Positions 2,628-40,664 of a stretch of DNA of 64,000 bases are shown here, piece by piece; position 1 is the first letter of the stretch, and each line of letters opens with the position of its first letter. The notes below the pieces were generated by a model. The model was not told the origin of the DNA, did not search any database, and saw only the letters and a list, made by a program, of their open reading frames with translations. The stretch is from positions 476,379 to 540,378 of the forward strand of contig NZ_LQBL01000028.1 of the NCBI RefSeq assembly GCF_001483745.1, in the 5' to 3' direction. This DNA comes from Serinicoccus chungangensis. GTDB taxonomy: Bacteria > Actinomycetota > Actinomycetes > Actinomycetales > Dermatophilaceae. A program made the translations under genes and the position numbers.

Positions 2628-2639
2628 TAGCGTGGCCGC
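2628..2639 (+). promoter_or_regulatory. -10 element for a leaderless start (TAGCGT)
   Basis: TAGCGT at 2628-2633 lies six bases before the ATG at 2640. Transcription would therefore begin at or next to the start codon. The same TANNNT box with 6-7 nt spacing precedes other starts in this window (16378, 17360, 24332, 56686 and the short ORF at 62244). No Shine-Dalgarno sequence is present between box and ATG. Confidence 0.45.
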
Positions 2640-2939: not shown

Positions 2940-2965
2940 GAAGGGTGGCCCCCGTGTGAAAAGGT

Positions 2966-2992
2966 GGAACCCGGGACACAATGGGGACGTCG
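2966..2992 (+). promoter_or_regulatory. Candidate ECF-sigma promoter upstream of telA operon
   Basis: GGAAC (2966-2970), 17 bases, then CGTCG (2988-2992) resembles the GGAAC / CGTT pattern used by actinobacterial stress ECF sigma factors such as SigE, SigH and SigR. It lies about 65 bases before the telA start. The -10 half deviates by one base, so the call is tentative. Confidence 0.25.
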
Positions 2993-3059
2993 CACGCGCG
3001 ACCTGCACATGCCCCGGCGGGGGCGGGCGCCCCCGCACCAGGCACCTCGAGGAGAGACG

Positions 3060-4313
3060 ATGACCGACCAGCCGCAGCCGCTCGCCGCGCCGGAGCCCCA
3101 GGCGGACCCCCTGGTGCTCACCGCCCCCTCCGCGTCCGAGCCGGTCGCCCAGACCGCGGCCCCGCGCATGGCGCCCCAGGTGGACCCGGAGGCGATGCCG
3201 GCCCTGGACGCCAAGGTCGAGGCATACCTCGCCGGTCTGACCGAGACCGAGACCCGCTCGCCGGAGTTCGCCCAGCGTGCCGCGGACGTGCGCACCATGG
3301 GCGACGCCGACATCCGCGCCGCCGCCGAGACCTCGAACCGCCTGCTCAAGTCCCCGGTCCGGGCCATCCAGCAGGGCGGGGTGTCGAAGGAGTCGAAGGT
3401 CGCGCAGACCCTCACCGAGCTGCGGCACACCGTCGAGGACCTCGACCCGGCGCAGGCGACCGGGGTGAAGAAGTGGTTCGAGCGGTTGCCCTTCTCGGAC
3501 CGCCTCACGAAGTACTTCCAGAAGTACGAGTCGGCGGAGAAGCATCTCGACGCGATCCTGCACGCCCTGCGCAGCGGCCAGGACGAGCTGGCCAAGGACA
3601 ACGCGGCGCTGAACATGGAGAAGCAGCAGTTGTGGGAGTCGATGGGCCGGCTCAACCAGTACGTCTACATCGCCGAGCAGCTGGACGCCAAGGTCGCGGC
3701 GACCATCGCCGAGCTGGACACCAGCGACCCGGACCGCGCCAAGGCGATGCGCGAGGACGTGCTCTTCTACGTCCGGCAGAAGCACCAGGACCTGCTCACC
3801 CAGCTCGCGGTCTCGATCCAGAACTACCTGGCGATCGACATCGTCATGAAGAACAACATCGAGCTCATCAAGGGCGTCGACCGGGCCTCGACCACCACGG
3901 TGTCGGCCCTGCGCACCGCGGTCCTGGTGGCCCAGGCGCTCAACAACCAGAAGCTCGTGCTCGACCAGATCACGGCGCTCAACCAGACCACCTCCCAGAT
4001 GATCCAGAGCACCAGCGAGCTGCTGCGGGACAACTCGGTGGCGATCCAGGAGCAGGCGGCCTCCTCCACGCTGGGGCTGGAGCAGCTGCAGGCGGCCTTC
4101 ACCAACATCTACGCCACCATGGACGCGATCGACGAGTTCCGGGTCCAGGCCCTGGACGGCATGTCGCAGACCATCGGGGTTCTCGAGGGCGAGGTCGAGA
4201 AGTCCCGCACCTACCTGGACCGGGCCCGTCGCACGGACGGCCGGCTGGCCGGCGGACAGCTGGACCTGGACGGGGGCCGGCCGGGCGGGTCGCTGTCGTC
4301 GGGGCCGCGCTGA
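3060..4313 (+). CDS. telA: TelA/KlaA family toxic-anion (tellurite) resistance protein
   Basis: 417 residues from the ATG at 3060, preceded by GAGGAGAG. After a disordered Pro-rich N-terminus of about 40 residues the protein is almost entirely helical and matches TelA throughout: SPVRAIQQGG, WFERLPFSDRL, KYFQKYESAEKHLDAIL, then YVYIAEQLDAKV and LNQTTSQMIQSTSELL. TelA proteins are cytoplasmic, accompany Ter-type stress systems, and lack a proven enzymatic activity. The gene opens a ten-gene unit of overlapping genes that contains a PknG kinase, PP2C phosphatase, vWA and FHA proteins. This suggests that TelA here is an effector or scaffold of a phosphorylation-controlled stress pathway. Confidence 0.9.
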   Translation: MTDQPQPLAAPEPQADPLVLTAPSASEPVAQTAAPRMAPQVDPEAMPALDAKVEAYLAGLTETETRSPEFAQRAADVRTMGDADIRAAAETSNRLLKSPVRAIQQGGVSKESKVAQTLTELRHTVEDLDPAQATGVKKWFERLPFSDRLTKYFQKYESAEKHLDAILHALRSGQDELAKDNAALNMEKQQLWESMGRLNQYVYIAEQLDAKVAATIAELDTSDPDRAKAMREDVLFYVRQKHQDLLTQLAVSIQNYLAIDIVMKNNIELIKGVDRASTTTVSALRTAVLVAQALNNQKLVLDQITALNQTTSQMIQSTSELLRDNSVAIQEQAASSTLGLEQLQAAFTNIYATMDAIDEFRVQALDGMSQTIGVLEGEVEKSRTYLDRARRTDGRLAGGQLDLDGGRPGGSLSSGPR

Positions 4314-4314
4314 G

Positions 4315-4938
4315 GTGGGCTTCTCCGACCTCCTGGACCGGATGCTGGGGCGCCCGGCACCCGGTGACGACCGGCTGGAGCTGCCCGCTCCCCCGACCGC
4401 CCAGGACGTGCACGAGGCGCTCGGCTCGACCGAGGAGCTCCTGGGCTCCAGCGCCCTCCCCTCGGTCGTCGTCGCCCGCGGCGCCCGCGTCATCGACACC
4501 GTGCGCGACACCCTGCCGCGGCTGGAGAAGCTCAGCGGCAGCGACCTCGGCTACACCGTCGTCGCCACCGCGACCGACTACCTGCCGGAGGCCATCGGGG
4601 CCTACCAGCGCCTCCCCCGGCGGTATGCCGACACCCGGCCGGTCGACGGCGCCAAGACCTCCCTCATGGTGCTCGTCGACCAGCTCGACCTGCTCGGGCT
4701 GACGATGGACCGGGTCTTCGACGCGGTCTACCGCCAGGACGCCCAGGAGCTGGTCGCGCAGGGTCGGTTCATCGCCGAGAAGTTCGGCTCCTCCGGCGCC
4801 GGCGGCTCGTTGCGCATCACCGAGGAGGAGCACGTCCCGGCGCCCGCGCCCGGCGGGTCGGCCGAGGCGCCCGGCAGCACGGACGACGGGGCGGACGGGG
4901 TGAGCCCGCTGACGCCACCGCAGGGAGGGGCACGATGA
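4315..4938 (+). CDS. Conserved operon protein of unknown function next to telA
   Basis: 207 residues from a GTG one base after the telA stop; the stop overlaps the next ATG (ATGA). The first 160 residues are predicted helical (GFSDLLDRMLGRP, PSVVVARGARVIDTVRDTLPRLEKL, SLMVLVDQLDLLGLTMDRVF). The last 40 residues are a Pro/Glu/Gly-rich tail. There are no cysteines, signal peptide or membrane helices, and I recognise no family. Its position suggests it works physically with TelA or the AAA+ protein that follows. Confidence 0.8.
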   Translation: MGFSDLLDRMLGRPAPGDDRLELPAPPTAQDVHEALGSTEELLGSSALPSVVVARGARVIDTVRDTLPRLEKLSGSDLGYTVVATATDYLPEAIGAYQRLPRRYADTRPVDGAKTSLMVLVDQLDLLGLTMDRVFDAVYRQDAQELVAQGRFIAEKFGSSGAGGSLRITEEEHVPAPAPGGSAEAPGSTDDGADGVSPLTPPQGGAR

Positions 4939-6710
4939 GCACGAGCACGGGGACGGGCGCGGTCAGGGACGCGGTCGAGCTGCTCGCCCGGGTGGGCAGG
5001 GAGGCCGGGCTGGACGAGCGCGCGGCGCGCGCGGAGGGGCAGGTCATCGCCGCCGCGGTGCTCGAGCAGCCCGGGCCGAGCAGCGCGCACACGCTGTGGG
5101 CCGGCGCGTTCGACCGGCCGGCGAGCGACTTCTTCGGCGCGGTGCCCCGGGGCCGCAGGTATGCCTCGATCCCCACCCCGCTGCTCTCGACGCTCGTCGC
5201 CGAGCGGAGCCCACGCGCGTCGGGGTATGCCCGGGCGCTCGCCGACGTCGCCACGGCGGCCTGCACCCTGCCCGGGGCGGGCCAGCTCAGCATCGGGAAG
5301 GCCACCTCGGTGGGGCGCACCCAGCTGGCGGCCGCCGGCGTGGCGCCGGCCCACGGGGCCGGGACGGCGACCGAGGGGCTCACCCCGCCCGACGCGGCAC
5401 CGGCCGTCGGCCCCGGCCCCGTCACCGGCGCGGGCGCGCTCGACCCGGGTCAGCTGCATACCTGGTCCAGCGCGCTGCTGCGGCGCGCGCAGGAGCAGTC
5501 CGCCCGGTTGGGCGAGCTGCTGGGGCAACCATCCGCGACGCCCGGTGGGGACCAGGGGCAACCATCCACGACGCCCGGTGGGGACCAGGGGCAACCATCC
5601 ACGACGCCCGGTGGGGACCAAGGGCAACCATCCACGACGCCCGGTGGGGACCAGGGGCAACCATCCACGACGCCCGGTGGGGTGCCGGCGGGCGAGACCG
5701 AGCAGGCCGTAGCCGAGACGCCACCGGAGGAGCCGGAGGCCGAGGCCGAGCCGGAGCGCTCGGTGGAGGAGCTGCTCGCCGAGCTCGACGAGCTCATCGG
5801 GCTGGAGCGGGTGAAGGCCGAGATCCACCGGCAGGTCGCGGTGCTCAAGATGGACGCGCGACGGCAGGAGGCCGGGCTCAAGGTCGCCACCCTGACGCGG
5901 CACCTGGTCTTCGTCGGCAACCCGGGCACCGGCAAGACGACCGTCGCCCGGCTGGTGGGAGGCATCTACCGCGCGCTCGGCCTGCTGAGCAAGGGCCAGC
6001 TCGTCGAGGTGGACCGCAGCGAGCTGGTGGCCGGCTACCTCGGCCAGACCGCCGCCAAGACGGCGGAGGTCGTGGGCAGCGCGCACGGCGGGGTCATCTT
6101 CATCGACGAGGCCTACAGCCTGGGCGGGGACCAGTACGGCAAGGAGGCCATCGACACCCTCGTCAAGGAGATGGAGGACCACCGCGAGGACCTCGTGGTC
6201 ATCGTCGCGGGCTACCCCGACCCGATGGCCGACTTCATCGCGACCAACCCGGGCCTGGAGAGCCGTTTCCGTACCATCATCGACTTCGCGGACTACACCG
6301 ACGAGGAGCTGGCCGCCATCCTGCAGCACCTCGCCGCGCAGATGGACTACGACCTGAGCGGGCCGGCGCTCACCCGGTTCACCGAGATCCTGGCGGCCAC
6401 GCCACGGGGCCCCAGCTTCGGCAACGGCCGGTTCGCGCGCAACCTGCTCGAGGCCGCGATCGGCCGGCACGCGTGGCGGCTGCGCGACACGGAGGGGGTC
6501 TCGGTGGAGGAGCTGCGCACGCTGCAGCGGGAGGACTTCGAGGACCGGGACGCGATCGACCTCTCGGTCACCGGCGAGGGGCCGACCGACGACGGGCCGG
6601 CCGACGTGCAGGACCTCGACCGGGCGACCGACGAGGGCCGGACCGACGCGGGTCCGAGCGACGCGGGTCCGAGCGACGCGGGTCCGAGCCACGGGCAGGA
6701 CCCGGCGTGA
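4935..6710 (+). CDS. CbbX/SpoVK-like AAA+ ATPase with Pro-rich repeat linker
   Basis: 591 residues. The N-terminal helical domain (about 1-195) is followed by a linker with five tandem 11-residue units GQPSTTPGGDQ, then an acidic stretch. The AAA+ module of the CbbX/EccA type covers about 275-525: Walker A GNPGTGKTT near residue 330, Walker B VIFIDEA near 390, sensor-like LESRF, and the C-terminal lid with FGNGRFARNLLE. The C-terminal tail contains three DAGPS repeats. This family remodels protein complexes as hexamers. It overlaps both neighbours by four bases and probably remodels TelA, vWA or FHA assemblies of the same operon. Confidence 0.88.
   Translation: MSTSTGTGAVRDAVELLARVGREAGLDERAARAEGQVIAAAVLEQPGPSSAHTLWAGAFDRPASDFFGAVPRGRRYASIPTPLLSTLVAERSPRASGYARALADVATAACTLPGAGQLSIGKATSVGRTQLAAAGVAPAHGAGTATEGLTPPDAAPAVGPGPVTGAGALDPGQLHTWSSALLRRAQEQSARLGELLGQPSATPGGDQGQPSTTPGGDQGQPSTTPGGDQGQPSTTPGGDQGQPSTTPGGVPAGETEQAVAETPPEEPEAEAEPERSVEELLAELDELIGLERVKAEIHRQVAVLKMDARRQEAGLKVATLTRHLVFVGNPGTGKTTVARLVGGIYRALGLLSKGQLVEVDRSELVAGYLGQTAAKTAEVVGSAHGGVIFIDEAYSLGGDQYGKEAIDTLVKEMEDHREDLVVIVAGYPDPMADFIATNPGLESRFRTIIDFADYTDEELAAILQHLAAQMDYDLSGPALTRFTEILAATPRGPSFGNGRFARNLLEAAIGRHAWRLRDTEGVSVEELRTLQREDFEDRDAIDLSVTGEGPTDDGPADVQDLDRATDEGRTDAGPSDAGPSDAGPSHGQDPA
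5523..5681 (+). repeat. 33-nt in-frame tandem repeat (five units)
   Basis: Five copies begin at 5523, 5556, 5589, 5622 and 5655, each encoding GQPS(A/T)TPGGDQ; the last is shortened after TPGG. The copies are nearly identical at DNA level and keep codons that are rare elsewhere in the gene (CAA, CCA). This indicates recent expansion by slippage or recombination rather than old divergence. Copy number is likely to vary between strains. Confidence 0.9.
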
Positions 6711-7927
6711 GCACCCCGCAGGGCGGGTCTGCGGCCTCCGCCCGACCGGCCCCGACGACGACCCCCGCGGCCACCACATCGACGGCCGCCGCTGCGTCGG
6801 GGAGTGCGCAGACCCCGTCGCAGACCCAGCCCGGGACCGGTCAGCCCGCCGGGCGCGCCCTGACCGCGCGGCAGCAGCGGCGGCGGGACGAGACGTCCAG
6901 CACCCCCCGGCTCCTGCGGCTGGCCCGGGCCGGGGCGGCCGCGGCCGCGCTGCTCACCGGGGTGGTCGCCACCGGGACCTTCTCGACCGACGGGATCAAC
7001 GCCACCCCCAACGTCGTCGCCGACCAGTGGGCGGCCGCCGAGCAGGCGAGGGTCGACATACCCCGCGCCGACCTGCTCGCCGCCCAGCGGGTCACCGACC
7101 CGGACGGCGTAGACCAGCAGACGCTGGAGGCCTACGACGAGGTGCTGCGGGCGGCGGCCACCGACCTCAGCCGCATGGGCGACGACGCCGGGGTGGCCGC
7201 CGGCGACTGGAGCGCCTTCGTCACCGGGGTGGAGCGGGCCGCGGCGCAGGAGTCCACGGACGTGTATGCCGACGCCTCGCGTCTCGCAGGCATAGCGACC
7301 GAGCAGGTCGCCGCGGTGGCGGACGCCCGCGCCGACGCCCTGCTCACCGGGTCACGCTCGGTGCTCACCACCGTGGTGGGCACCCTGGGCGTCGTCGTCC
7401 TCGTCGGGATCATGGTGTGGCTGGCGCTGCGCACCCGGCGGATCGTCAACCTCCCGCTCGCGGGCGCCACGCTCATCACCGCCGGCCTCACCTGGTTGTC
7501 GGTCAACCCCGGTGCCCTGCCGCTGGACTACGACCAGTACGTCGAGGACACCCGCGCCTCCACCACCGCGCTGCAGGAGGTCTACCAGGCCCGTACCGCC
7601 CAGGTCGCCGCCGCCGGCGGGGTGGACGTGGATGCCCCGGAGCAGCAGGTGACCGAGGCCACGCAGGCGCTGGAGCGGCTCGACGACCCCGAGCTGGAGC
7701 AGGCGTGGTCCGAGGTCTCCTCCGGGGAGGACCCGGCGGCGAGCGCCGACGCCTACGCCCAGGTCGAGAGCGCCCTGGCCGACCGGGTGAGCGACGACCT
7801 GGCCAGCGTCGACCCCGGCGTCGGCGCACCGGCGGCCCTCACCGCGGCCGGCGCGCTGCTCCTGGGTGTCGTGGCGGCGGGTCTGGCCTGGACCGGCATC
7901 ACCCAGCGGCTGCGGGACTACCGGTGA
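6707..7927 (+). CDS. Four-helix membrane protein (GlnX-like position in PknG operon)
   Basis: 406 residues from a GTG overlapping the previous stop. A 70-residue disordered cytoplasmic N-terminus leads to membrane helices at about 74-94, 220-241, 249-267 and 377-398. Two large extracytoplasmic loops (about 95-219 and 268-376) are helical and acidic. This layout of two outer helical sensor loops resembles GlnX, the sensor partner of PknG in mycobacteria and corynebacteria, although I see no strong motif that proves homology. Inference: it transmits an extracellular or envelope signal to the PknG kinase encoded three genes downstream. Confidence 0.7.
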   Translation: MSTPQGGSAASARPAPTTTPAATTSTAAAASGSAQTPSQTQPGTGQPAGRALTARQQRRRDETSSTPRLLRLARAGAAAAALLTGVVATGTFSTDGINATPNVVADQWAAAEQARVDIPRADLLAAQRVTDPDGVDQQTLEAYDEVLRAAATDLSRMGDDAGVAAGDWSAFVTGVERAAAQESTDVYADASRLAGIATEQVAAVADARADALLTGSRSVLTTVVGTLGVVVLVGIMVWLALRTRRIVNLPLAGATLITAGLTWLSVNPGALPLDYDQYVEDTRASTTALQEVYQARTAQVAAAGGVDVDAPEQQVTEATQALERLDDPELEQAWSEVSSGEDPAASADAYAQVESALADRVSDDLASVDPGVGAPAALTAAGALLLGVVAAGLAWTGITQRLRDYR

Positions 7928-9381
7928 GCGAGGACCGCAGGAGGGGCGGCGAGCCCGAGCTCCCCCCGATGACCATCATCGGGGAGGACCTGCCCGACGT
8001 CGAGGACACCACGGTCGAGGAGCTGCGGGCCCAGCAGGAGCAGCTGGAGCAGGCGCGCCGCGACCTGGCCGACCGTACCCGCGAGGAGCGCGAGCGTGCC
8101 GAACAGCAGCTGGCCGCCGAGCGGCGCCGCGCCGAGCGCGAGCTGGCCCGCCGGCAGCGCGAGATCGACGACGCCGAGCGGCGTCTGCTGCGGACCGAGC
8201 GACGCCTGCGCCGGGAGGCGGCGAGCTCCGGTCGGCACGTCGACCTGCCCCGGACGCCCCGCCGGGCCGCCCGCCGCTCCGACAGCGAGCTCCTCGACGC
8301 GGCCCGGGCCGAGCTCGGCACACGGGTCCCGCGGCTCGGGCTCGCCGCCACCCTCGCGCTGGGTGCCGGGCTCCTGCTGGCGCTCGGCAGCACGCTGTCC
8401 ACGGACCGGGTCGAGCAGGGGCAGACGCGGACGCTCACCGTCCTCGACACCGCGCAGGCCGACCTGCGCGACGCCGTGTCGTCCCTCGACACCGAGCTGG
8501 TGCGCTACGCGACCGGCGACCCCGTGCCGCCGGACGACGCCGGGCGGCTGCCCAGCGTGACGGCCGCGCTGGAGGTGCTGGGCCGGGAGGGGATCGACCC
8601 CTACGCCGCCGAGCGGCTCTCCGAGGCCGAGCCGGGGCTGTCCGGCGACGCGGTGAGCCCGGTCCGCGCGGCCACCGCCTGGCAGGACACGCGCAGGGAC
8701 ATGGCGTATGCCGTCTCGTCCTGGGACGTGGAGCGCGAGCTCGAGGAGCTGCGGCCCGGGTCGGCGCTCGGCACCCTCCTGCTGTGGGCGGGCGCCCTGG
8801 TCCTCGTCGTCGCCGCGGTCGTGCTGCTCCGGGCGGGCGCCAAGGTCGCCAGCGCCTTCTTCGTGCTGGCGGCCCTGTCGACATCGCTGCTCGTGGTCCA
8901 GGACACGCAGCCGGGGTGGCGTCGGGCGGTGGTGGCCCACGAGGAGGCGAGCGACCGTCCCGGGGGGCTGCAGCGGGTCGTCGAGGAGGACCTGAGGGTC
9001 GTGGTGGGGCTGCGCTCGCTGGACCCGTCGCAGACCGAGGACGACGAGTACGGCTACTGGAACCAGCACTACGGCCTCGAGGACGGCGCGGACCCGGACG
9101 GCACCGTGGCGCAGGCCCGCGCCGACCTGGGCCGGGTCCTCACGGGGGACAGCAGCCAGCAGGAGCAGCGCACGGCCGCCCTCGACCTCGTGGCGGCGGC
9201 CGACCAGGCCCGGGACCCCCTGGAGGCCGACCTGGTCACGGCCCGCGAGGCCGTGGTGGCCGAGGCGACCACCGGTCCCTCCGCCGGGCTGCTGGGCGCC
9301 GGCCTGGGGCTGGCCGTGCTGCTGCCCTTCGCCGGCCTCGGGGCGGAGTCGCTGGCCCGACGCCGGAAGGAGACCCCGTGA
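7924..9381 (+). CDS. Coiled-coil, four-helix membrane protein
   Basis: 485 residues, GTG start overlapping the upstream stop. Residues 30-105 form a long charged coiled coil rich in Arg/Glu. Membrane helices follow at about 138-158, 285-303, 308-325 and 453-473, with two large outer loops between helices 1-2 and 3-4. The membrane architecture copies that of the preceding gene, so the two may be ancient paralogues that pair through their outer loops. The coiled coil facing the cytoplasm could bind the soluble coiled-coil protein encoded next. No enzymatic motif is seen. Confidence 0.68.
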   Translation: MSEDRRRGGEPELPPMTIIGEDLPDVEDTTVEELRAQQEQLEQARRDLADRTREERERAEQQLAAERRRAERELARRQREIDDAERRLLRTERRLRREAASSGRHVDLPRTPRRAARRSDSELLDAARAELGTRVPRLGLAATLALGAGLLLALGSTLSTDRVEQGQTRTLTVLDTAQADLRDAVSSLDTELVRYATGDPVPPDDAGRLPSVTAALEVLGREGIDPYAAERLSEAEPGLSGDAVSPVRAATAWQDTRRDMAYAVSSWDVERELEELRPGSALGTLLLWAGALVLVVAAVVLLRAGAKVASAFFVLAALSTSLLVVQDTQPGWRRAVVAHEEASDRPGGLQRVVEEDLRVVVGLRSLDPSQTEDDEYGYWNQHYGLEDGADPDGTVAQARADLGRVLTGDSSQQEQRTAALDLVAAADQARDPLEADLVTAREAVVAEATTGPSAGLLGAGLGLAVLLPFAGLGAESLARRRKETP

Positions 9382-10514
9382 GCCCGGCCCACGCCACCGC
9401 GCCCGCCGCGCCGGGCAGCATCGGGGCGGACGTCCCGGACACCGAGCTGCTGGCCTACCTGGACGCCATGCTGCGGTGGAAGGACCGTCGGCGCAGCGAG
9501 CTGGCCGCCCTCGACGAGGCGGCGCTGGCCGTGGCCGATGCGCACGAGCGGGCCGCGGTCACCCCCGACGTCACCCTCTCGATGACCCTCTGGCAGGCCG
9601 TGGCGGACCGGCTGGCGCTCATCCAGGCCACCTGGGACAGCGGCCGGGTGGGCGAGCGCGAGCGACGTCGGATCACCACCCTCGTCTGGGGCAGCCTCGA
9701 GCAGCCGGGCACCCGCGGGGCGCAGTCCCTGGCGGTCTCCCTGCCCGAGGCCTGCCGGCTCTCGGACTCCCTGGCCTCCTCGCTGCGCTCGAGGCTGCGC
9801 CTCGACGGGGCGGACCCCGACCTGCCCGGCCGGTTGCGCGCGCTGCGCCAGCAGGTCGAGCGCATCGCCGACCAGGTCGCGCTCATCCCGGACGCCCGCT
9901 CCGGCTCGGCCGCCGGGGCGCACCGCGAGCTCGACCAGCGGCTCACCGACATCACCGACCGGGCGGCCCGCGGCGCGGACGTCGGCGGACTGCTGGGCCC
10001 GCTGGAGTCCCAGGCCGCCACGGTGGAGCGTGACCTCATCGTCGCCGCGTCGGCGCGGGCGCACGCCAAGGCCGACCACGCCCAGGCCACCCGCGAGGTG
10101 GCCGAGCTCTCCGCCCGCGGCGAGGCCGTCCGCGCGCTGGCCCACCGCGCCCGCGCCACGGTCACCCCGGCGCCCCGCCTCGGCGTCCCCGACGTCGCGG
10201 CCCTCGGCCCGGTGCCCGGCGACCCGGCCGAGCTGACGGCATACCGGGAGCGGCTGGAGCGTGTCGAGCGGGCCCTCACCGTCGCCCAGGGCGAGTATGC
10301 CGCCGCGCTGGCCCGGCTGGAGGACCTCACCGAGCGCGCGGCCCGGGTCCGGCTGCAGCTGTCGCAGGCCTCGGGGGAGCCTGAGCCGGCCATCGAGGCC
10401 CTCGCCGACCAGACCGACGCCCTGCTGGCGACCCGGCCGACCGACCTCACCCGGTTGCAGGCGCTCGTGCAGGCCCAGGAGAGCTTCGCCACCGCGATGG
10501 GAGGACGACCGTGA
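9378..10514 (+). CDS. Soluble helical/coiled-coil protein of the PknG operon
   Basis: 378 residues, GTG start inside the previous stop (GTGA). The whole protein is predicted alpha-helical with long heptad-like stretches (for example RLRALRQQVERIADQVALI and YRERLERVERALTVAQGEY). There is no signal peptide, membrane helix or cysteine pair. No family is recognised. Its place between a coiled-coil membrane protein and the kinase suggests a scaffold that couples membrane sensors to PknG. Confidence 0.7.
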   Translation: MSPAHATAPAAPGSIGADVPDTELLAYLDAMLRWKDRRRSELAALDEAALAVADAHERAAVTPDVTLSMTLWQAVADRLALIQATWDSGRVGERERRRITTLVWGSLEQPGTRGAQSLAVSLPEACRLSDSLASSLRSRLRLDGADPDLPGRLRALRQQVERIADQVALIPDARSGSAAGAHRELDQRLTDITDRAARGADVGGLLGPLESQAATVERDLIVAASARAHAKADHAQATREVAELSARGEAVRALAHRARATVTPAPRLGVPDVAALGPVPGDPAELTAYRERLERVERALTVAQGEYAAALARLEDLTERAARVRLQLSQASGEPEPAIEALADQTDALLATRPTDLTRLQALVQAQESFATAMGGRP

Positions 10515-12805
10515 CCGCGTGCCAGGAGCCGGGGTGCACCGGCCGCTACGAGGACGGCTGGTGCAACGTGTGCGGTGCGCCCGAGCCGCGGCAGGCGCCG
10601 ATCGAGGCGACCCCGGTGCGGCCGGGCCCGGGCGGCGCCGCGGGCACCACCTCCCCTGCCGTCGGGGACTCCCGGGCCTCGGGGAGCTCGGGGAGCTCCG
10701 TGGGAGCCGACCCGGCCCAGGGGTCGGTGCAGGTGGTCGCCACGCCGGCGCCGGGGCAGACGCAGCAGGCCGTGAGCGCGGCCCGGGTCAGGCGTCGACG
10801 CGCCGGTGCGGCCGGCCGCCGCTCCCGCCTGGGCCTGGGGCTCACCGACGTGCCGGACGTCCCGGTGACCGACCCGACCGAGAAGCTCATGGTCGACCCG
10901 CGCGTCCCCGAGGACCGGCGGGTCTGCCCCGTCTGCGGGGCCGACGTCGGCCGCGCCGCCGGGCAGGCCGAGGGGCGTCAGCAGGGCTTCTGCCCGCAGT
11001 GCCGCGCCCCCTACTCCTTCACCCCCAAGCTGGATCCGGGCGAGCTGGTGGCGGGGCAGTACGAGAATGTCGGTGCCCTCGCCCACGGGGGCATGGGGTG
11101 GATCTACCTGGGCCGCGACAAGAACGTCTCAGACCGCTTCGTCGTGCTCAAGGGGCTGCTCAACACCGGCGACGAGGACGCCCTGGACGCCGCCGTCGCC
11201 GAGCAGCAGTTCCTGGCCCAGGTCAAGCACCCGCTCATCGTCGAGATCTACAACACCGTCCAGCACGACGAGGACGCCTACACCGTCATGGAGCACGTCG
11301 GCGGGCGCTCTCTCAAGCAGCTGCTGCAGGACCGGATGGCGGAGGCGGGCCGCTACACGCCCTTCCCCGTCGACCAGGCCCTGGCCTACGTCATCGAGGC
11401 GCTGCCCGCCTTCACCCACCTGCACGAGCTCGGGCTGCTCTACTGCGACTTCAAGCCGGACAACCTCATCCACGAGGGCGACGGCATCAAGCTCATCGAC
11501 CTGGGCGGGGTGCGCCGGCAGGACGACCTGGACTCCCCCATCTACGGCACGGTCGGCTACCAGGCGCCCGAGGTGGCCGAGGTCGGCCCCTCGGTCGCCT
11601 CCGACATCTACACCATCGGCCGCACCCTGTGCGTGCTCACCTTCGAGTTCCGCGGCTACCAGAGCGAGTACGTCCACTCCCTCCCGCCCCTGTCCCAGGT
11701 CCCGGCCTTCAGCGAGCACGACGCCTTCTACCGCGTCGTCGCGCGGTGCTGCGCCCCGGACCCCAACGACCGCTTCCTGTCCGTGGAGGAGCTGCGCAGC
11801 CAGCTCGTCGGGGTGCTGCGCCAGGTCGTGGCGGCCAGCGGGCCGGGCCGGCCGGCGACCCTCTCGGCGCACAGCCCGGCCTTCGACCCCCCGGTCACCA
11901 CCGGGGAGACCCTGTCGTGGTGGGAGCTGCCCGAGCTGCAGCGGGACGACACCGACCCCATGCTCGACTGGGTCTCGGGGCGCAGCACCAACGACCCGCA
12001 GGCGACCTACGAGGCGCTGGCCGGGGCCCCGGAGGAGACCCCGGAGGTCTTCCTGGCCCGGGCCCGCGCCGGCATCCGGATGGGCCAGCGCGGCTGGGTG
12101 GAGGAGGCCGTGCGCGGTCTGCTGGCCGAGGACCCCTGGGACTGGCGTGGGTCCTGGGTCCGTGGGCTGTGGGCGCTCTCGCAGGCCGAGGGCGAGCACG
12201 TGCGCGAGCGCGCGCAGGAGGCCGGCGGGCACTTCGCCGCCGTGCGGGACGCCCTGCCCGGTGAGATCGCCCCGCGCATGGCGCTCGCGCTGGCCACCGA
12301 GCTGGCCGGCTACGACCAGGCCGCCGAGCTGGACTACGAGCGGGCGTGGCGCACGGACGCGGCCTACGTCGCCCCTGCCGCCTTCGGTCTGCACCGGGTG
12401 CGTCTGGCCCGCGGCGACGTGGACGGCGCCATCGCCGCCCTCGACTCGGTGCCGGCGAGCAGCCGGGCCCACCCCCGGGCCCGGTGGCTGCGGGCCGAGC
12501 TGCTGCGCCGTCGCGGCGGTCTCGCGGACCTGCGCGAGTCCATGCACTCGGTCACCCGCCTCACCCTCGACCCACGCCAGCGCGCGCAGTTCAACGCGGT
12601 CATCTACGAGCAGGCGCTCGACCAGGTGACCGAGCACGGCCCCCAGCCGGACTGGCGGGTGGGTGAGGTCCCGCTCACCCGCGACGCGCTGCAGCGCGCC
12701 CTGGAGCGGGAGTACCGCGTCCTCGCCGACTACACCCCCGACCCGCAGGAGCGGGCCGGGCTCATCGACCGCGCCAACGCGGTCCGCCCCTGGAGCTGGA
12801 CATGA
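10511..12805 (+). CDS. pknG: PknG-type serine/threonine protein kinase with rubredoxin-like domain and TPRs
   Basis: 764 residues. It starts with a small Cys cluster (C4, C9, C18, C21; ends WCNVCGAP), then a disordered segment. A rubredoxin-like metal site, CPVCG ... GFCPQCR, lies near residues 138-165. The kinase domain covers about 183-440: glycine loop GALAHGGMGWIYLG, catalytic LLYCDFKPDN, metal-binding LIDLGG, and YGTVGYQAPE. The C-terminal third forms TPR-like helices. This is the PknG architecture. PknG kinases phosphorylate FHA proteins and control central nitrogen metabolism in actinobacteria. The PP2C and FHA proteins two and four frames downstream are natural antagonist and reader. 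Confidence 0.95.
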   Translation: MTACQEPGCTGRYEDGWCNVCGAPEPRQAPIEATPVRPGPGGAAGTTSPAVGDSRASGSSGSSVGADPAQGSVQVVATPAPGQTQQAVSAARVRRRRAGAAGRRSRLGLGLTDVPDVPVTDPTEKLMVDPRVPEDRRVCPVCGADVGRAAGQAEGRQQGFCPQCRAPYSFTPKLDPGELVAGQYENVGALAHGGMGWIYLGRDKNVSDRFVVLKGLLNTGDEDALDAAVAEQQFLAQVKHPLIVEIYNTVQHDEDAYTVMEHVGGRSLKQLLQDRMAEAGRYTPFPVDQALAYVIEALPAFTHLHELGLLYCDFKPDNLIHEGDGIKLIDLGGVRRQDDLDSPIYGTVGYQAPEVAEVGPSVASDIYTIGRTLCVLTFEFRGYQSEYVHSLPPLSQVPAFSEHDAFYRVVARCCAPDPNDRFLSVEELRSQLVGVLRQVVAASGPGRPATLSAHSPAFDPPVTTGETLSWWELPELQRDDTDPMLDWVSGRSTNDPQATYEALAGAPEETPEVFLARARAGIRMGQRGWVEEAVRGLLAEDPWDWRGSWVRGLWALSQAEGEHVRERAQEAGGHFAAVRDALPGEIAPRMALALATELAGYDQAAELDYERAWRTDAAYVAPAAFGLHRVRLARGDVDGAIAALDSVPASSRAHPRARWLRAELLRRRGGLADLRESMHSVTRLTLDPRQRAQFNAVIYEQALDQVTEHGPQPDWRVGEVPLTRDALQRALEREYRVLADYTPDPQERAGLIDRANAVRPWSWT

Positions 12806-13962
12806 GCGACCCGACCACCGCCCCGCTGCCGGACGACCCGACCGCACCGATCCCCGCGCCCGGGTCCCGGCCCACCGAACAGCCCGAGCAGCCGGAGGCC
12901 GCGACCACCGGGCCGCGTGACGAAGACCAGCCCGGCGCCGAGGACCAGCCCGGTATGGAGGACGAGCCCGGTGCCGAGGAGGAGCCCGAGCCGTTCAGCG
13001 ACGGCCCTCCCCCGCTGCCGGAGCCGATGCTGGTGCTGGACGGCGCGCTGCCCCCGGCCGCCGCCCCCGCCCCCGCCCCGGAGGCCGACCACGGCACCTG
13101 CGCCTCCTGCGGCGGCGGCTTCGACGCGGAGGGGTGGTGCACGCAGTGCGGGGAGCGCCGCCCCGACCCGCGCCACCACGTCACGTCCGCGCCCTCGGCA
13201 ACGGTGGCCGGGGTCTGCGACCGGGGCCGCAGGCACCGCGACAACGAGGACGCCATGGCGCTGTGGGCCGACGACGACCAGCCGGGTCGGGCCGTGCTCG
13301 TCGTCTGCGACGGGGTGTCCAGCGCCCCCCGCTCCGCCGAGGCGAGCCTCGCGGCCGCCGAGGCCGCGCTCGAGCAGCTGCGCGGGTCCGGCGACCCGGA
13401 GCAGCGGCACGACCGGGCGGCGCGGGCCGCCGCCGACGCCGTGGCCGAGGTGGCCGGCGAGAACCACCGCGACGCGCCGTCGTGCACCTACGTGAGCGCC
13501 GTGGTCGAGGACGGCCGCGCCAGCATCGCCTCCATCGGGGACAGCCGCGCCTACTGGCTGCCCGACGACGGGGAGCCGCAGCGGCTCACCAGCGACGACT
13601 CGATGGCCGAGGAGCAGGTGCGCGCCGGCATACCCCGGGCCGAGGCCGAGGCGGGCCCGCTCGCGCACACCATCACCCGGTGGCTGGGGCCGGACTCCCC
13701 CGACCACCGGCCCGGCACCACGGTGCACGACGTCGCCGCCCCCGGCTGGCTGCTGCTCGCCAGCGACGGTCTGTGGAACTACGCCTCCGACCCCAGGGAC
13801 CTCGCTGCCGTGGTCCGCTCGGTCGCCGCGCGGGCCGGTCGCTCCCCCGCGCCGCTGGCCCAGGGCCTGGTGGACTGGGCCAACGAGCAGGGGGGTGCCG
13901 ACAACATCACGGTCGCCCTCGCCCGCTGCGGGGACGCGAGGCAGGATGGGACCCATGGCTGA
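12802..13962 (+). CDS. PP2C-family protein phosphatase with N-terminal Cys ribbon
   Basis: 386 residues, ATG overlapping the pknG stop. The first 95 residues are acidic and Pro-rich with repeated EDQPG units. A zinc-ribbon-like CASCGGGFDAEGWCTQCG follows near residue 100-117. The PP2C domain runs from about 137: RHRDNEDAM, VLVVCDGVSSAP, IASIGDSRAYWL, LLLASDGLWNY and GGADNITVAL supply the metal-binding aspartates. It should dephosphorylate Ser/Thr targets of the adjacent PknG. The Cys ribbon closely resembles those at the N-termini of PknG and the FHA protein. Confidence 0.93.
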   Translation: MSDPTTAPLPDDPTAPIPAPGSRPTEQPEQPEAATTGPRDEDQPGAEDQPGMEDEPGAEEEPEPFSDGPPPLPEPMLVLDGALPPAAAPAPAPEADHGTCASCGGGFDAEGWCTQCGERRPDPRHHVTSAPSATVAGVCDRGRRHRDNEDAMALWADDDQPGRAVLVVCDGVSSAPRSAEASLAAAEAALEQLRGSGDPEQRHDRAARAAADAVAEVAGENHRDAPSCTYVSAVVEDGRASIASIGDSRAYWLPDDGEPQRLTSDDSMAEEQVRAGIPRAEAEAGPLAHTITRWLGPDSPDHRPGTTVHDVAAPGWLLLASDGLWNYASDPRDLAAVVRSVAARAGRSPAPLAQGLVDWANEQGGADNITVALARCGDARQDGTHG

Positions 13963-15277
13963 GTTCACCTCGACCGTCCACCAGAACGAGTTCCTGCCCG
14001 ACGGGGGCACCGACGTGCACGCGATCGTCTCGGTCACCTGCTCCGGGGCCGGGGAGGTGGTCGCCTGGGGCGGCGCGGGCGGCGCGGGAAGCGCGTGGGG
14101 CCAGGGCGGGTCCGGCGGCGACGCCGGCGAGGTCATCATCGTCGACGTCTCGGGGTCCATGGACGTCCAGGGCGTGCAGGCGGCGGCCTACGCCGCGTCC
14201 GCCGCGCTCGACGAGATCGTGGACGGCGTGTGGTTCGCCATCGTGGCGGGCAACCACGAGGCGGCGCTGTGCTACCCGACCGGCACCTCGGCCGCGATGG
14301 CCCGGATGTCGGCGCAGACCCGGCTGGAGGCCAAGCGGTCGCTGCAGCGACTGGCCCCCGGCGGGGGGACGGCGATGGGCCGCTGGCTGCTGGCGGCCGG
14401 CCAGCTGTTCGCTACGGTGCCCTCGCTGTCCAAGCGGCACGCGATCCTGCTCACCGACGGCGCCAACCAGCACGAGACCCCGCAGGAGCTGAGCTGGGCG
14501 CTGGACCAGGTGCGGGGCCGGTTCCAGGTCGACTGCCGCGGGCTGGGTGCGGCGTGGCAGGTGGCCGAGGTCCGCCGCATCGCCGAGACGCTGCTGGGCA
14601 GCGTCGACCTCATCCGCACCTGGGACGGGCTGAGCGAGGACTTCGCCGCCCTCATGGCGTCCTCGATGGGCAAGGGGGTCAGCGACGCGCAGCTGCGCGT
14701 GTGGGCGCCCCAGGGTGCCGAGGTGCTCTTCGTCAAGCAGGTCAGCCCCACGCTGGAGGACCTCTCCGGTCGCCGGGTCGAGGTCAACGCGCTCACCGGC
14801 GGCTACGACACCGGCGCCTGGGGCGACGAGACCCGCGACTACCACGTCGCGGTGCGGCTGGCCCCCAAGGCGGTCGGGCAGGAGCAGCTCGCCTCGCGGG
14901 TGCAGCTCGTCGTGGGTGGCGAGGTCCGCACGCAGGGTCTGGTCAAGGCGGCCTGGTCGGCGGACGACGTGCTGACGGCCCAGATCAGCCCGGAGGTCGC
15001 GCACTACACCGGCCAGACCGAGCTGGCCTCGGCGATCCAGGAGGGGTTGCGGGCCAAGGCCATGGGCGACGACGTGACCGCCACGTCCCGGCTGGGGCGC
15101 GCCGTGCAGCTGGCCCGCGAGACCGGGGACGACGGCGCCACGTCGCGCCTGTCGCGGGTCGTCGACATCGACGACGCCGCGACCGGCCGGGTGCGCCTGC
15201 GCCGGAACGTCGACAAGCTCGACGAGATGGAGCTGGACACCGCCTCCACCAAGACGACCCGGGTGCGGCCCAGCTGA
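13955..15277 (+). CDS. von Willebrand factor A (vWA) domain protein, TerY-like
   Basis: 440 residues. I chose the ATG at 13955 because MAEFTSTVHQNEFLP is the expected opening of the family; an in-frame ATG at 13946 is possible. The vWA domain holds a complete MIDAS: DVSGSM near 64-69, the later GGGT threonine, and LLTDG near 165-169. A Gly/Ala-rich loop of about 20 residues precedes the MIDAS strand. The C-terminal half contains a beta-rich domain and a helical tail. TerY-type vWA proteins form a triad with a PP2C phosphatase and a Ser/Thr kinase; all three are contiguous here. It overlaps both neighbouring genes. Confidence 0.88.
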   Translation: MAEFTSTVHQNEFLPDGGTDVHAIVSVTCSGAGEVVAWGGAGGAGSAWGQGGSGGDAGEVIIVDVSGSMDVQGVQAAAYAASAALDEIVDGVWFAIVAGNHEAALCYPTGTSAAMARMSAQTRLEAKRSLQRLAPGGGTAMGRWLLAAGQLFATVPSLSKRHAILLTDGANQHETPQELSWALDQVRGRFQVDCRGLGAAWQVAEVRRIAETLLGSVDLIRTWDGLSEDFAALMASSMGKGVSDAQLRVWAPQGAEVLFVKQVSPTLEDLSGRRVEVNALTGGYDTGAWGDETRDYHVAVRLAPKAVGQEQLASRVQLVVGGEVRTQGLVKAAWSADDVLTAQISPEVAHYTGQTELASAIQEGLRAKAMGDDVTATSRLGRAVQLARETGDDGATSRLSRVVDIDDAATGRVRLRRNVDKLDEMELDTASTKTTRVRPS

Positions 15278-16314
15278 TGGTGAGGTGCCCCGAGGGCCAC
15301 GACAGCGAGGCCACCGACTACTGCGACACCTGCGGCGCACCCATCGCCGCCGCGCCCGCTGCCCCGGCCGGGGCGGCAGGTGCGCCGTCACCGGGAGGCG
15401 GCGGGTCGGTCCTCGACCTCGACGAGCCGGTCGCCCAGACGCAGTCCTGCCCGCACTGCGGCGGCGTCAACGTCGCGGACGCCCTCTTCTGCGAGGCGTG
15501 CGGCTACGACTTCACCACCGGCGCCCTCCCGCTGGGTGCCGAGCCCGAGGAACCGGAGGGACCGGTCGCCGAGCCCGAGAACGGCGAGGCGCCCGAGCCG
15601 GACGCCGATCCTGTCGTCGACCCCGTCGTCGACCCCGAGAACGGCGAGGCGCCCGAGCCGGACGCCGACCCCGACGCCGATCCTGTCGTCGACCCCGTCG
15701 TCGACCCCGTCGTCGACCCCGAGAACAGCGAGGCGCCCGAGCCCGACGCCGGCCCCGGGGCGCCCGGGCCGGAGTCCCGGCCCGGCCCGACGCCGCAACC
15801 TGCGCCCGGACCGCAGCCGCCCCCGGCGACCACCGCCCCCGAGCCCGCCGCGGTCGGTCACGCCCGGCCACGGCATACCCCTCCCTCGCGCGACCTCGCG
15901 GACACCTGGGTGGTGGAGGTTTGGGTCGACCCCGACTGGTATGCCGTGCAGCAGACCGCGGAGGCGTGCCCCAGCGCCGGGGTCCCGGACGTCGTGGTCG
16001 TGCGACGCAGCGTCGTCATGGTCGGTCGGCCCTCCGGGAGCCTCGGCGTGCGCCCGGAGGTCGACGCGGGCGCCGACAGCGCGGTCTCGCGGCGGCACGC
16101 CCAGCTGACCAGCGACGGGACCCGCTGGTGGATCGAGGACCTGGGCAGCAGCAACGGCACCTACGTCGGGGTCGTGGGCGAGCCGCTGCCCACGCAGGCC
16201 CTGACGCCCGGTCAGCGGGTCGAGATCGACCGGGACGACCGCATCTACGTCGGGGCCTGGACCCGGCTGGTGCTGCGGCAGGCCACGGCGGCCGAGCGAG
16301 CGGGGCAGGGCTGA
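15277..16314 (+). CDS. FHA domain protein with two N-terminal zinc ribbons and Asp/Pro repeat linker
   Basis: 345 residues; the ATG overlaps the vWA stop (TGATG). Two short ribbons open the protein: C4..H8..C16..C19 (TDYCDTCGAP) and CPHCGG ... FCEACGYDF near 58-75. A long acidic linker repeats ENGEAPEPDADP and VVDP units. The FHA domain is at about 240-335: VVMVGRPSG, SRRHAQL and DLGSSNGTYV, the residues that bind phosphothreonine. It is the expected phosphopeptide reader, and probably also a substrate, of the PknG kinase encoded in the same unit. Confidence 0.93.
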   Translation: MVRCPEGHDSEATDYCDTCGAPIAAAPAAPAGAAGAPSPGGGGSVLDLDEPVAQTQSCPHCGGVNVADALFCEACGYDFTTGALPLGAEPEEPEGPVAEPENGEAPEPDADPVVDPVVDPENGEAPEPDADPDADPVVDPVVDPVVDPENSEAPEPDAGPGAPGPESRPGPTPQPAPGPQPPPATTAPEPAAVGHARPRHTPPSRDLADTWVVEVWVDPDWYAVQQTAEACPSAGVPDVVVVRRSVVMVGRPSGSLGVRPEVDAGADSAVSRRHAQLTSDGTRWWIEDLGSSNGTYVGVVGEPLPTQALTPGQRVEIDRDDRIYVGAWTRLVLRQATAAERAGQG

Positions 16315-16377: not shown

Positions 16378-17271
16378 ATGCCCACCGACCCCCCGGCGCC
16401 GACGACCCGCACCAGCCGAGCCCGGCTGCGCCGCTCCGGCCGTCACCTGCTGCGCCTGGGGGGCCTGCTGGCCGTCGTGTCCCTCGTCGTCACCCTCGTC
16501 GGCGGGTGGGCCACCCGCTCCCTGCTGGAGCACCTCCAGTCCAACTCGGCCGAGCTGCTCGACGGCACCGCGACGGTCTCGCTGACCGAGGGCACGGAGC
16601 GCACCCTCTACGTCACCGGAGGGCTCGTCGCACCGGGCGAGATCGCCCCGACCCCGGTCGAGCAGATCAGCTGCACCATCACCGGTCCCGGCGGGGAGCT
16701 ACCGTTCACCACGCTGGCCGAGGAGGGCAGCCGGGTCGGCATCGACACGGCGCTGGCCCGCTTCCAGGTGGTCGGCAGGTTCACCGCGGCGGACACCGGC
16801 GAGCACCAGATCGACTGCGAGGGTCTGGGTGTCGTCGTGGCCCCGGACGTCGGCCCGGCCAACGCGTTGCTCCGCCTCGGCGGGCTCGCGCTCGGCACCC
16901 TCGGCACCTTCGTGGGCCTCTCGATGGTGCTCATCGGGGGCGTGCTGCTCCTTCTCGTCCGCGCGCCCGACGGGGGCCAGGACGGGGAGGAGATCCTCGA
17001 CGACGCCCCTCCGGCCGAGGGGGCCGACGAGTGGTGGGAGGACGAGGCCGGAGACGGCCGGCCCGAGCAGGCGGGGCGGCCTGCCGGCAGCGACGACGAC
17101 GCCGAGACCGGGGCCGGGACCGAGGCCGGGGCCGCCGACGGTGACGCCGAGTTCGTCGACCTCAGCGACGAGGAGCTGGCCGCGCTGTCGGAGGAGCAGA
17201 TCGCCGAGCTGGTCGCCTCCGGTCAGCTGGTCTTCGTCGACGACGACGAGGACGACACCACCCCTACGTGA
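16378..17271 (+). CDS. Two-helix membrane protein with extracytoplasmic beta domain and acidic tail
   Basis: 297 residues. A basic N-terminus precedes helix 1 (about 22-45). An outer domain of about 110 residues carries two cysteines likely to pair (SCTITGPGG and DCEGLG). Helix 2 lies near 165-193, and a long very acidic cytoplasmic tail ends in ELVASGQLVFVDDDE. The outer domain is related to that of the next gene (TCTVTGPDG, TFTCEGG), so the two are paralogues. No family name is recognised. The location behind the PknG operon suggests a membrane accessory of that system. Confidence 0.7.
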   Translation: MPTDPPAPTTRTSRARLRRSGRHLLRLGGLLAVVSLVVTLVGGWATRSLLEHLQSNSAELLDGTATVSLTEGTERTLYVTGGLVAPGEIAPTPVEQISCTITGPGGELPFTTLAEEGSRVGIDTALARFQVVGRFTAADTGEHQIDCEGLGVVVAPDVGPANALLRLGGLALGTLGTFVGLSMVLIGGVLLLLVRAPDGGQDGEEILDDAPPAEGADEWWEDEAGDGRPEQAGRPAGSDDDAETGAGTEAGAADGDAEFVDLSDEELAALSEEQIAELVASGQLVFVDDDEDDTTPT

Positions 17272-17347
17272 CCGGCTGGTGCGAGTCGTCCCCGACCCGT
17301 CCGGTAGGCCCTCGACCCACGGTGCGCGCGACGCCGGGGGTGGCGGA

Positions 17348-17359
17348 TAAGGTCGTGCC
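17348..17359 (+). promoter_or_regulatory. -10 element TAAGGT before a leaderless start
   Basis: TAAGGT (17348-17353) followed by six bases and ATG 17360, the same geometry as at 2640 and 24332. The -35 region is not convincing. Confidence 0.4.
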
Positions 17360-18085
17360 ATGAGCTACGGGAACCCTCCGGCACCGCGACGCAGCGGTCT
17401 GACGACGGCCGGCAAGTGGATGTTCATCATCGGCCTCGTCCTGTCCGTCATCGTCGGGATCGGCGTCGTCTGGGGCGGGGTGCAGGGTGCCCGGATGTTC
17501 AGCGACCTCCAGGGCGGCGGGACGCCGATCGACGGGGGCCAGACGACCGTCTCCATGGAGGAGGGCGACCTGCGGCTGGTGACCGCCGAGGGCAGCCAGA
17601 CCCCGACGTGCACGGTGACCGGGCCGGACGGCACCGAGTCGGCGCTCACGCAGGACAGCACCTTCGACACCGGTGACCAGCAGGTCGACGCCCAGCTGGT
17701 GGGCACCTACCAGGCCACCGCCACCGGGGAGCACACGTTCACCTGCGAGGGCGGCGCCGCGTCGCTGTCCCCGAGCATCAGCATCGGGGCCACCATCGGC
17801 CTGGCGGTCGCGGGCCTGGGCATCCTGGCACTCATCCCGCTGCTGCTGCTCACCGGCATCGGGCTCATCCTGTGGCTCGTCGGCCGCAGCAGGGACCGGA
17901 AGGCCGCGGACGGGCCGCCCGGGGGCTACGGCTACGGCACCGCCTACCCGCAGCAGGGCTACGGCCAGCCGCAGGACAGCGGCTACCCGCAGGCACCGGG
18001 GCAGGGGTACGGCCAGCCGTACGGGCAGGGGTCACCCCCGCGGCCGCCCGGGCAGGACCCGACCGACCCCTACCGCCGGGACTGA
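17360..18085 (+). CDS. Two-helix membrane protein with Gly/Tyr/Gln/Pro-rich tail, paralogue of the preceding gene
   Basis: 241 residues. Helix 1 is at about 20-45 and helix 2 at about 140-172. Between them lies a beta-rich outer domain with a cysteine pair (PTCTVTGPDG and HTFTCEGG). The cytoplasmic tail is low complexity with YGQPQ/YPQ-type repeats. Such tails are common in actinobacterial membrane proteins and may bind partners or phase-separate. The shared outer-domain motif with the gene at 16378 supports a duplication. Function unknown. Confidence 0.72.
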   Translation: MSYGNPPAPRRSGLTTAGKWMFIIGLVLSVIVGIGVVWGGVQGARMFSDLQGGGTPIDGGQTTVSMEEGDLRLVTAEGSQTPTCTVTGPDGTESALTQDSTFDTGDQQVDAQLVGTYQATATGEHTFTCEGGAASLSPSISIGATIGLAVAGLGILALIPLLLLTGIGLILWLVGRSRDRKAADGPPGGYGYGTAYPQQGYGQPQDSGYPQAPGQGYGQPYGQGSPPRPPGQDPTDPYRRD

Positions 18086-40660: not shown

Positions 40661-40664
40661 CTTC

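Follow-up and report, generated by a model that had tools for sequence, protein, structure and literature searches.

A ten-gene block around a PknG kinase in Serinicoccus chungangensis as a predicted enlarged, GlnH-less variant of the GlnX-PknG system

Ten genes around a PknG kinase

We analysed a 64,000-nucleotide stretch of the Serinicoccus chungangensis genome (the window; contig NZ_LQBL01000028.1, positions 476,379 to 540,378), which carries a block of ten tightly packed genes at window positions 3060-16314 of the + strand, with a PknG-type kinase as the seventh (Table 1). All ten were confirmed as real genes; a simple gene picker based on third-position GC content missed genes 4, 5, 6 and 10, which are supported by open reading frames, start choice and conserved relatives. 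From gene 1 to gene 10 the junctions measure +1, -4, -4, -4, -4, -4, -4, -8 and -1 bases, which agrees with an earlier note on this DNA describing genes that overlap by 1-8 bases or lie one base apart. Sequence comparison suggests that the block is a conserved operon, and an enlarged form of the known nutrient-sensing kinase operon glnX-glnH-pknG.

The families that the earlier note had assigned without database searches to the TelA, AAA+, PknG, PP2C, vWA and FHA proteins were recovered in Pfam and NCBIfam searches. PknG has an N-terminal four-cysteine motif, followed by a rubredoxin domain, the kinase domain and a TPR region. This protein matches PDB 2pzi at 6.3e-123, keeps the catalytic motifs VLKG, Y-D-KP-N and LIDLG, and is the sole PknG rubredoxin match in the genome. 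The AAA+ protein matches the CbbX structure 3syk (6.8e-58) and carries Walker A and Walker B patterns. It resembles CbbX, SpoVK and EccA in its AAA core and lid, but its long N-terminal region is unmatched in this comparison, and its scores fall far under the curated equivalog cut-offs (279.2 against 422.95 bits for SpoVK, 245 against 466.65 for EccA and 226.6 against 459.25 for CbbX). The PP2C protein of the window carries VCDG, ASDG and DNIT, and the MIDAS pattern of the vWA protein was found in 88/92 loci, the window among them. A four-cysteine ribbon pattern is common to PknG (100/101 loci), PP2C (96/97) and the FHA protein (88/88), as counted by pattern search with positions inspected in seven loci, and may be a shared docking device. 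Two linkers contain tandem repeats, one in the AAA+ gene (33 bp x 4.9, 97% matches, window 5522-5682) and one in the FHA gene (60 bp x 2.2, window 15565-15697).

Three of the proteins have no clear solved relative. The best matches to solved structures were at E 0.047 for TelA and at the chance level of E 0.025 for gene 6, and the structure search found none for gene 2. The close relatives are Serinicoccus, with a gene 6 on an uncultured Serinicoccus contig (L126) being 98% identical to that of the window. The gene 2 protein of the window has no Pfam family, and 24 members of its group gave scattered weak matches, the best at 0.0038. In Bacillus, TelA (YaaN) is paired with XpaC. The window likewise pairs TelA with a small conserved companion, but XpaC was rejected as its identity: none of the 24 members matched the XpaC family PF10112, which also has no match in this genome and was above its cut-off in 0/60 class genomes.

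Two membrane proteins with large outer loops, as the earlier note had described, follow the AAA+ gene. At this place relatives encode a protein with four transmembrane (TM) segments and two outer loops of ~130-170 residues, in line with the four TM segments and two outer domains reported for GlnX (PMC9769921). The proteins of two tested relatives match the NCBIfam GlnX model at 2.9e-55 and 6.2e-66, under its 250-bit cut-off. Gene 4 aligned with GlnX in hhalign over 359 columns (99.7%, E 1.6e-26), and has four TM segments, two outer domains and a cytoplasmic C-terminal tail with RLRDYR; it is thus predicted to be a GlnX homologue. Gene 5 has a GlnX-like topology and an N-terminal coiled coil (judged by eye), TM positions of both proteins being computed on the orthologues of locus L061. 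Its long N-terminal tail contains P-M-(3)-G-(4)-D-(1)-E-D-T-T-(1)-E, invariant in 13/13 sequences. It does not match the NCBIfam GlnX model, and its designation as a proven GlnX paralogue was dropped, as profile comparison gave probabilities of only 42.7 against GlnX and 57.0 against gene 4. At L061, L086 and L087 the AAA+ gene and gene 6 are ~3.9 kb apart, with room for a further membrane gene between genes 4 and 5; the extra piece there in L087 matches gene 5.

Table 1. Genes of the block and two neighbouring genes, with window positions
Feature	Position	Strand	Evidence
Gene 1, TelA-family protein, 417 residues	3060..4313	+	PF05816 1.6e-88
Gene 2, conserved TelA companion of unknown family, 207 residues	4315..4938	+	53% mean column identity
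Gene 3, AAA+ ATPase, CbbX/SpoVK/EccA group, 591 residues	4935..6710	+	PF00004 and PF17866
Gene 4, predicted diverged GlnX homologue, 406 residues	6707..7927	+	NCBIfam GlnX 3.3e-9; hhalign E 1.6e-26
Gene 5, second membrane protein, GlnX-like topology, 485 residues	7924..9381	+	sequence, orthologue TM positions, alignment
Gene 6, soluble protein of the full cluster, 378 residues	9378..10514	+	alignment; 141 relatives
Gene 7, PknG kinase, 764 residues	10511..12805	+	PF16919, PF00069, PF16918
Gene 8, PP2C phosphatase with N-terminal zinc-ribbon motif, 386 residues	12802..13962	+	PF13672 1.5e-17
Gene 9, vWA protein, MIDAS DVSGS and VWA_3_C, 440 residues	13955..15277	+	PF13768, PF18571
Gene 10, double zinc ribbon and FHA, 345 residues	15277..16314	+	PF12773, PF00498
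Possible operon member, membrane protein	16378..17271	+	15 loci at E<1e-10; no Pfam match
Possible operon member, membrane protein	17360..18085	+	13 loci at E<1e-10; no Pfam match

Conservation of the block and of its parts

Profile searches detected PknG_TPR in 56/197 genomes of the class and in 73/149 of the family. We fetched 59 loci from the family and located eight landmarks in them (TelA, gene 2, AAA+, gene 6, PknG, PP2C, vWA and FHA). The landmarks stand in the same order in 47; among the other 12, eight are fetched pieces that end at a contig end and four are real departures. The full order was also present in 6/20 loci from other families of the class (L032-L037, two families). Gene 2, at E <= 1e-40, occurs in 72 of the 149 family genomes: 71 carry both PknG and gene 2, two PknG alone (G256, G300), one gene 2 alone (G242) and 75 neither (Fisher p 5e-39, uncorrected for kinship), and the three with just one of the two are all assemblies of at least 360 contigs. 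In the 71 genomes with both, the two genes lie less than 10 kb apart in 59 and on different contigs in nine. The claim of the earlier note that these genes travel together is borne out by this survey. Searching genome contigs with gene 6 gave 141 relatives; among the best 80 of the 141, which were kept, 55 have the eight landmarks in order, and many of the others are short contigs. Named carriers in this search were, among others, Serinicoccus, Ornithinimicrobium, Mobilicoccus, Agilicoccus, Austwickia, Dermatophilus, Intrasporangium and Tetrasphaera, and also Terrabacter, Pedococcus, Nocardioides, Microlunatus, Enemella, Micropruina and Actinotalea.

The short overlaps are kept as well. Our survey chose the in-frame start closest to the previous stop, a choice that favours short overlaps, and gave -4 bases at the AAA+/GlnX junction in 84/100 loci, GlnX/GlnH in 62/68, gene 6/PknG in 85/98, PknG/PP2C in 79/97 and vWA/FHA in 53/86, with -8 at PP2C/vWA in 48/89. 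The TelA/gene 2 junction is loose, overlapping or abutting in just 15/92. The retention of short overlaps across relatives is more than chance.

Parts of the block also occur apart. Other families, which have no TelA part, carry GlnX-GlnH either ahead of PknG-PP2C-vWA (L038, L040, L042, L046 and L047) or downstream of it (L050), and the mycobacterium-like locus L051 has GlnX-GlnH-PknG without PP2C and vWA. Weak gene 2 homologues were found in 19 further genomes of the class, and 11/26 genomes with gene 2 have no PknG_TPR. Of 25 weak gene 2 places, 18 were fetched to examine their neighbourhood. TelA is the direct same-strand neighbour of gene 2 in seven, lies ~1.8-1.9 kb upstream in four and was not seen at seven; PknG was in none of the 18 fetched stretches. 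Since these modules exist apart, the block appears to have been joined from two, TelA with gene 2 and GlnX-GlnH-PknG-PP2C-vWA-FHA. PP2C and vWA look like old neighbours of PknG, because GlnX-GlnH-PknG-PP2C-vWA is also found without TelA in other actinobacterial families, and the TelA-gene 2 module looks like the addition.

Several single loci differ in detail. L064, L111 and L112, where the PP2C/vWA/FHA or TelA/gene 2 neighbours are absent or elsewhere, are natural cluster splits; at L064, TelA, gene 2, vWA and FHA are not at the PknG locus and gene 2 is on a different contig. The PknG match of L065 is split in two pieces ~1.9 kb apart. In Ornithinimicrobium pekingense (L134, 20310-21121) a second gene-2-like and gene-6-like match lies downstream of the cluster. 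L131, titled as an Acidobacteria metagenome-assembled genome, contains the cluster with a gene 6 75% identical to that of the window, and is probably a mis-binned Ornithinimicrobium contig.

GlnH and the two faces of GlnX

We compared 132 related loci in which AAA+, gene 6 and PknG are all present, drawn from two collections with some genomes counted twice. In 89 of these, GlnH follows GlnX and precedes gene 6, exactly where gene 5 stands in the window, and 43 are without it. The protein at this place matched SBP_bac_3 in 3/3 tested (9.6e-24 to 2e-27), and a lipobox-like start was seen by eye. The earlier note had held that the block is not the glnX-glnH-pknG arrangement, as it saw no GlnH. 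That absence stands for the whole 64,000-nucleotide window, and the genome has no match of GlnH grade (best GlnH-profile match 1.1e-42). However, the separation from the known operon does not hold: because gene 4 is a GlnX homologue, the block is best described as a derived glnX-glnH-pknG locus, and most related loci carry GlnH. Across 20 GlnH-less genomes the best GlnH-profile match was 5.7e-51, with none at E 0.001 in three (for one of the 20, G202, the receptor region falls outside its contig). Three control genomes with GlnH gave 4.1e-143, 3.8e-139 and 2.1e-123, and also generic binding proteins at ~1e-48. The distance from AAA+ to gene 6 is 2212-3413 bases with GlnH, and without it either 869-1570 (one receptor gene) or 2634-3927 (two or three membrane genes), the last class being that of Serinicoccus and Ornithinimicrobium.

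On a tree of PknG, vWA and TelA from 93 loci (87 of the 132 and six outgroups; 28 GlnH-less; short pieces and identical PknG left out), the fewest changes in GlnH state is three. One falls on clade A (Serinicoccus, Ornithinimicrobium, Mobilicoccus and Austwickia), whose support is 100 in this tree and was 0.445 in an earlier 70-locus tree. The other two fall in clade B (Propionibacteriaceae), as two losses or as a loss with a regain in Enemella. Since the outgroups of the tree have GlnH, parsimony makes loss of GlnH in the window lineage likelier than gain.

The GlnX proteins of the GlnH-less clades have diverged unevenly. In a sample of 40 GlnH-bearing, 23 clade A and six clade B loci, pairs with 55-60% PknG identity had a GlnX identity of 0.40 with GlnH (88 pairs) and 0.31 in both A (108 pairs) and B (2 pairs); at 60-65% the values were 0.41 (436 pairs), 0.34 (31) and 0.29 (10). 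Genes 2 and 6 were equally or more conserved in the GlnH-less clades where measured. Four outer motifs, NNRQG type, AR[AS]NNR, NE[ST]L type and RGSG, occur in 46, 59, 60 and 75 of the 89 GlnX from GlnH-bearing loci, and a pattern search found each in 0/31 GlnH-less GlnX, drawn from the 43 at approximately one per genome. We then scored each protein for retention of the columns conserved at >=70% in 68 distinct GlnX of GlnH-bearing loci (leave-one-out; 102 outer and 13 cytoplasmic columns). Median outer retention was 0.90 with GlnH (0.73-0.96, n=68), 0.18 in clade A (0.12-0.34, n=17, shortened GlnX left out), 0.33 in clade B (0.30-0.51, n=7) and 0.49 in GlnH-bearing outgroups (0.33-0.60, n=7); judged by PknG, five of these outgroups lie further away than clades A and B. 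The 13 cytoplasmic columns comprise PP and TP ahead of TM1, the LA-R--R--N loop that joins TM2 to TM3, and the G---R--EY tail; here retention was 0.92 with GlnH, 0.85 in A, 0.92 in B and 0.77 in the outgroups. Gene 4 of the window retains 0.16 of the outer and 0.77 of the cytoplasmic columns.

This is a strong lead that the outer face of GlnX was held by GlnH and that the inner face is held by a partner still present, for which PknG is the best candidate. A change confined mainly to the outer face suggests where sensor and kinase would dock. Because its outer conserved residues are lost and the cytoplasmic ones kept, the gene 4 receptor probably still feeds PknG and no longer reads GlnH. Alternatively, GlnX could be decaying in the GlnH-less clades into a vestigial receptor, leaving PknG to work without an outside signal. 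The lost outer residues would fit this, as would the finding that, among the 41 GlnH-less loci that have a GlnX frame, 10 encode a shortened GlnX (273-338 residues). However, the reading frame stays open and the cytoplasmic residues are mostly retained. Gene 4 also shows invariant positions of its own, in and near the membrane, in an alignment of 14 Serinicoccus and Ornithinimicrobium sequences, and a second membrane gene has been added, with spacing for a third in some loci. We therefore consider decay unlikely.

A proposed signalling route

In mycobacteria and Corynebacterium glutamicum, GlnH is reported to sense amino acids, GlnX is the proposed signal carrier and PknG phosphorylates GarA/OdhI (PMC6069109, PMC8546545, PMC9769921). 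The window resembles this operon in its PknG with rubredoxin, kinase and TPR regions, in the GlnX-like protein with four TM segments and two outer domains beside the kinase, and in a GarA/OdhI homologue in the genome (C27:233311; 171 bits, below the 200-bit cut-off; unlinked to the block). The C. glutamicum PknG has no rubredoxin domain, unlike that of the window. The window lineage differs in having no GlnH, a diverged outer face of GlnX and an extra membrane gene, and its predicted operon includes PP2C, vWA, FHA, gene 6, AAA+, gene 2 and TelA, unlike glnX-glnH-pknG as presented in the available portions of these papers.

On balance we think it probable that the block unites two older modules in a single signalling operon, from which GlnH was lost and in which gene 4 is a retargeted receptor. 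In the ancestor, GlnH would have been the amino-acid-binding component that signals to PknG by way of GlnX, in the manner described for mycobacteria and C. glutamicum. One module would have comprised GlnX-GlnH-PknG with PP2C, vWA and FHA, and the other TelA and gene 2, to which the AAA+ ATPase and gene 6 were added. With GlnH gone and the conserved outer residues of gene 4 lost, gene 4 would most likely still contact and control PknG through its cytoplasmic residues, but would respond to a different signal, either by itself or together with gene 5. The substrates of PknG would be FHA-type proteins, either the unlinked GarA/OdhI homologue or gene 10, or both, and PP2C would reverse the phosphorylation. 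Envelope sensing by the membrane proteins, as the earlier note proposed, and a scaffold role for gene 6 would be candidate functions within this route. The vWA, FHA, AAA+ and TelA proteins may form an assembled, remodelled output; we infer these roles, and that of PP2C, from the protein families and their constant company. A more specific form of this proposal is put forward tentatively. In Serinicoccus and Ornithinimicrobium, GlnX without its amino-acid subunit may be one chain of a two- or three-chain membrane receptor, composed of gene 4 and copies of gene 5. Such a receptor would directly sense a ligand or the state of the membrane, and would drive a TelA/AAA+ machine under kinase control. 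As natural experiments, the losses of GlnH might then map the docking faces, with GlnH at outer motifs such as NNRQG, NE[ST]L and RGSG, and the kinase at TP before TM1, the LA-R--R--N loop and the G---R--EY tail.

Several observations weigh against the retargeted-receptor operon. The links among the block proteins rest on sequence, and the phosphatase activity of PP2C is assumed: the patterns R..NED and [AS]SDG match only 4/97 and 11/97 loci. The NCBIfam GlnX match of gene 4 reaches 36 bits, far below the cut-off, and the profile probabilities of gene 5 do not establish homology to GlnX. Four family loci truly depart from the gene order (L064, L102, L111 and L112). GlnH-less PknG is not unique to clades A and B, because other families have genomes in which an additional PknG copy (L043, L044, L045, L048 and L049) shows no GlnH on its strand. 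Only two to three changes in GlnH state occurred in total, so the assignment of the two GlnX faces is a lead rather than proof. The outer loss is clear in clade A but weaker in clade B, where it overlaps the outgroups, and the cytoplasmic retention of the window is at the low end, with just 13 columns counted. At 70-95% PknG identity the GlnX of GlnH-less loci is no less similar than that of GlnH-bearing ones; since no difference is seen there, the GlnX change appears to have come with or after GlnH loss, and not as a lasting faster rate. Finally, family members have a GarA N-terminal site that differs from the ETTS form, whether or not they carry GlnH.

That site reads ETTSVFRADF in the mycobacterium-like L206 and is PTTMRF-like in most family members seen (L206-L235). 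Its loss as a companion of GlnH loss was rejected, as the altered site is also present in GlnH-bearing relatives. Three genomes without PknG_TPR (G048, G081 and G094) still carry GarA.

Two further explanations for the block as a whole were weighed against the retargeted-receptor operon. The earlier note had compared part of it with the TerY-P triad of Ter systems, which consists of a vWA protein, a PP2C phosphatase and a Ser/Thr kinase. The block could accordingly serve Ter-like resistance to tellurite, metals or envelope damage, with PknG acting for TelA and not in nutrient sensing. The adjacency of kinase, PP2C and vWA, with TelA in the same block, did hold up. However, the kinase is of the PknG type and the vWA protein matched only VWA families and VWA_3_C up to E 0.01, with no TerY-type C-terminal domain, so the triad is an analogy and was rejected as the identity of the block. 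In relatives the core is accompanied by a GlnH of the amino-acid type, and the PknG-PP2C-vWA core occurs without TelA nearby, which leaves the Ter-like role somewhat more doubtful than receptor decay. That the genes are mere neighbours with separate roles is very improbable: short overlaps are ordinary in compact high-GC genomes, TelA-gene 2 and GlnX-GlnH-PknG are also found separately, and three genomes (G252, G260 and G281) have PknG at a large distance from gene 2 on one contig, but the occurrence of these two genes is near all-or-none (71 with both against 3 with one), they are mostly close together and the gene order is the same in three families.

Downstream of the block, the two membrane genes at 16378-18085 are possible operon members. 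At E<1e-10 their matches were confined to loci with the Serinicoccus/Ornithinimicrobium form of the cluster, in counts that take in the window and duplicate records. Elsewhere, the low-GC stretch at window 37908-41846 (57-61%) encodes an HNH endonuclease and a HipA-like kinase, and is possibly a mobile island. No RNA genes were found in the window at the thresholds used.

We file the block as a variant of the GlnX-PknG system, enlarged and GlnH-less, and new relative to the published three-gene form. In the open-access literature we found no account of PknG with TelA, vWA or FHA neighbours; in the portions of PMC1262709 that were available, vWA is discussed in PpkA and PknG appears in the reference list only. 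The three-gene form has been called conserved in actinobacteria with PknG (PMC6069109), and the mode of GlnX-PknG interaction is stated to be still elusive (PMC9769921). In lineages that lack GlnH but retain GlnX and PknG, comparison by itself tells the two receptor faces apart and provides residues to mutate. In several actinobacterial families PknG appears beside its own phosphatase, vWA and FHA partners, and one large group has joined a TelA module to them; the published model of PknG signalling is based on the reduced, three-gene form of the system.

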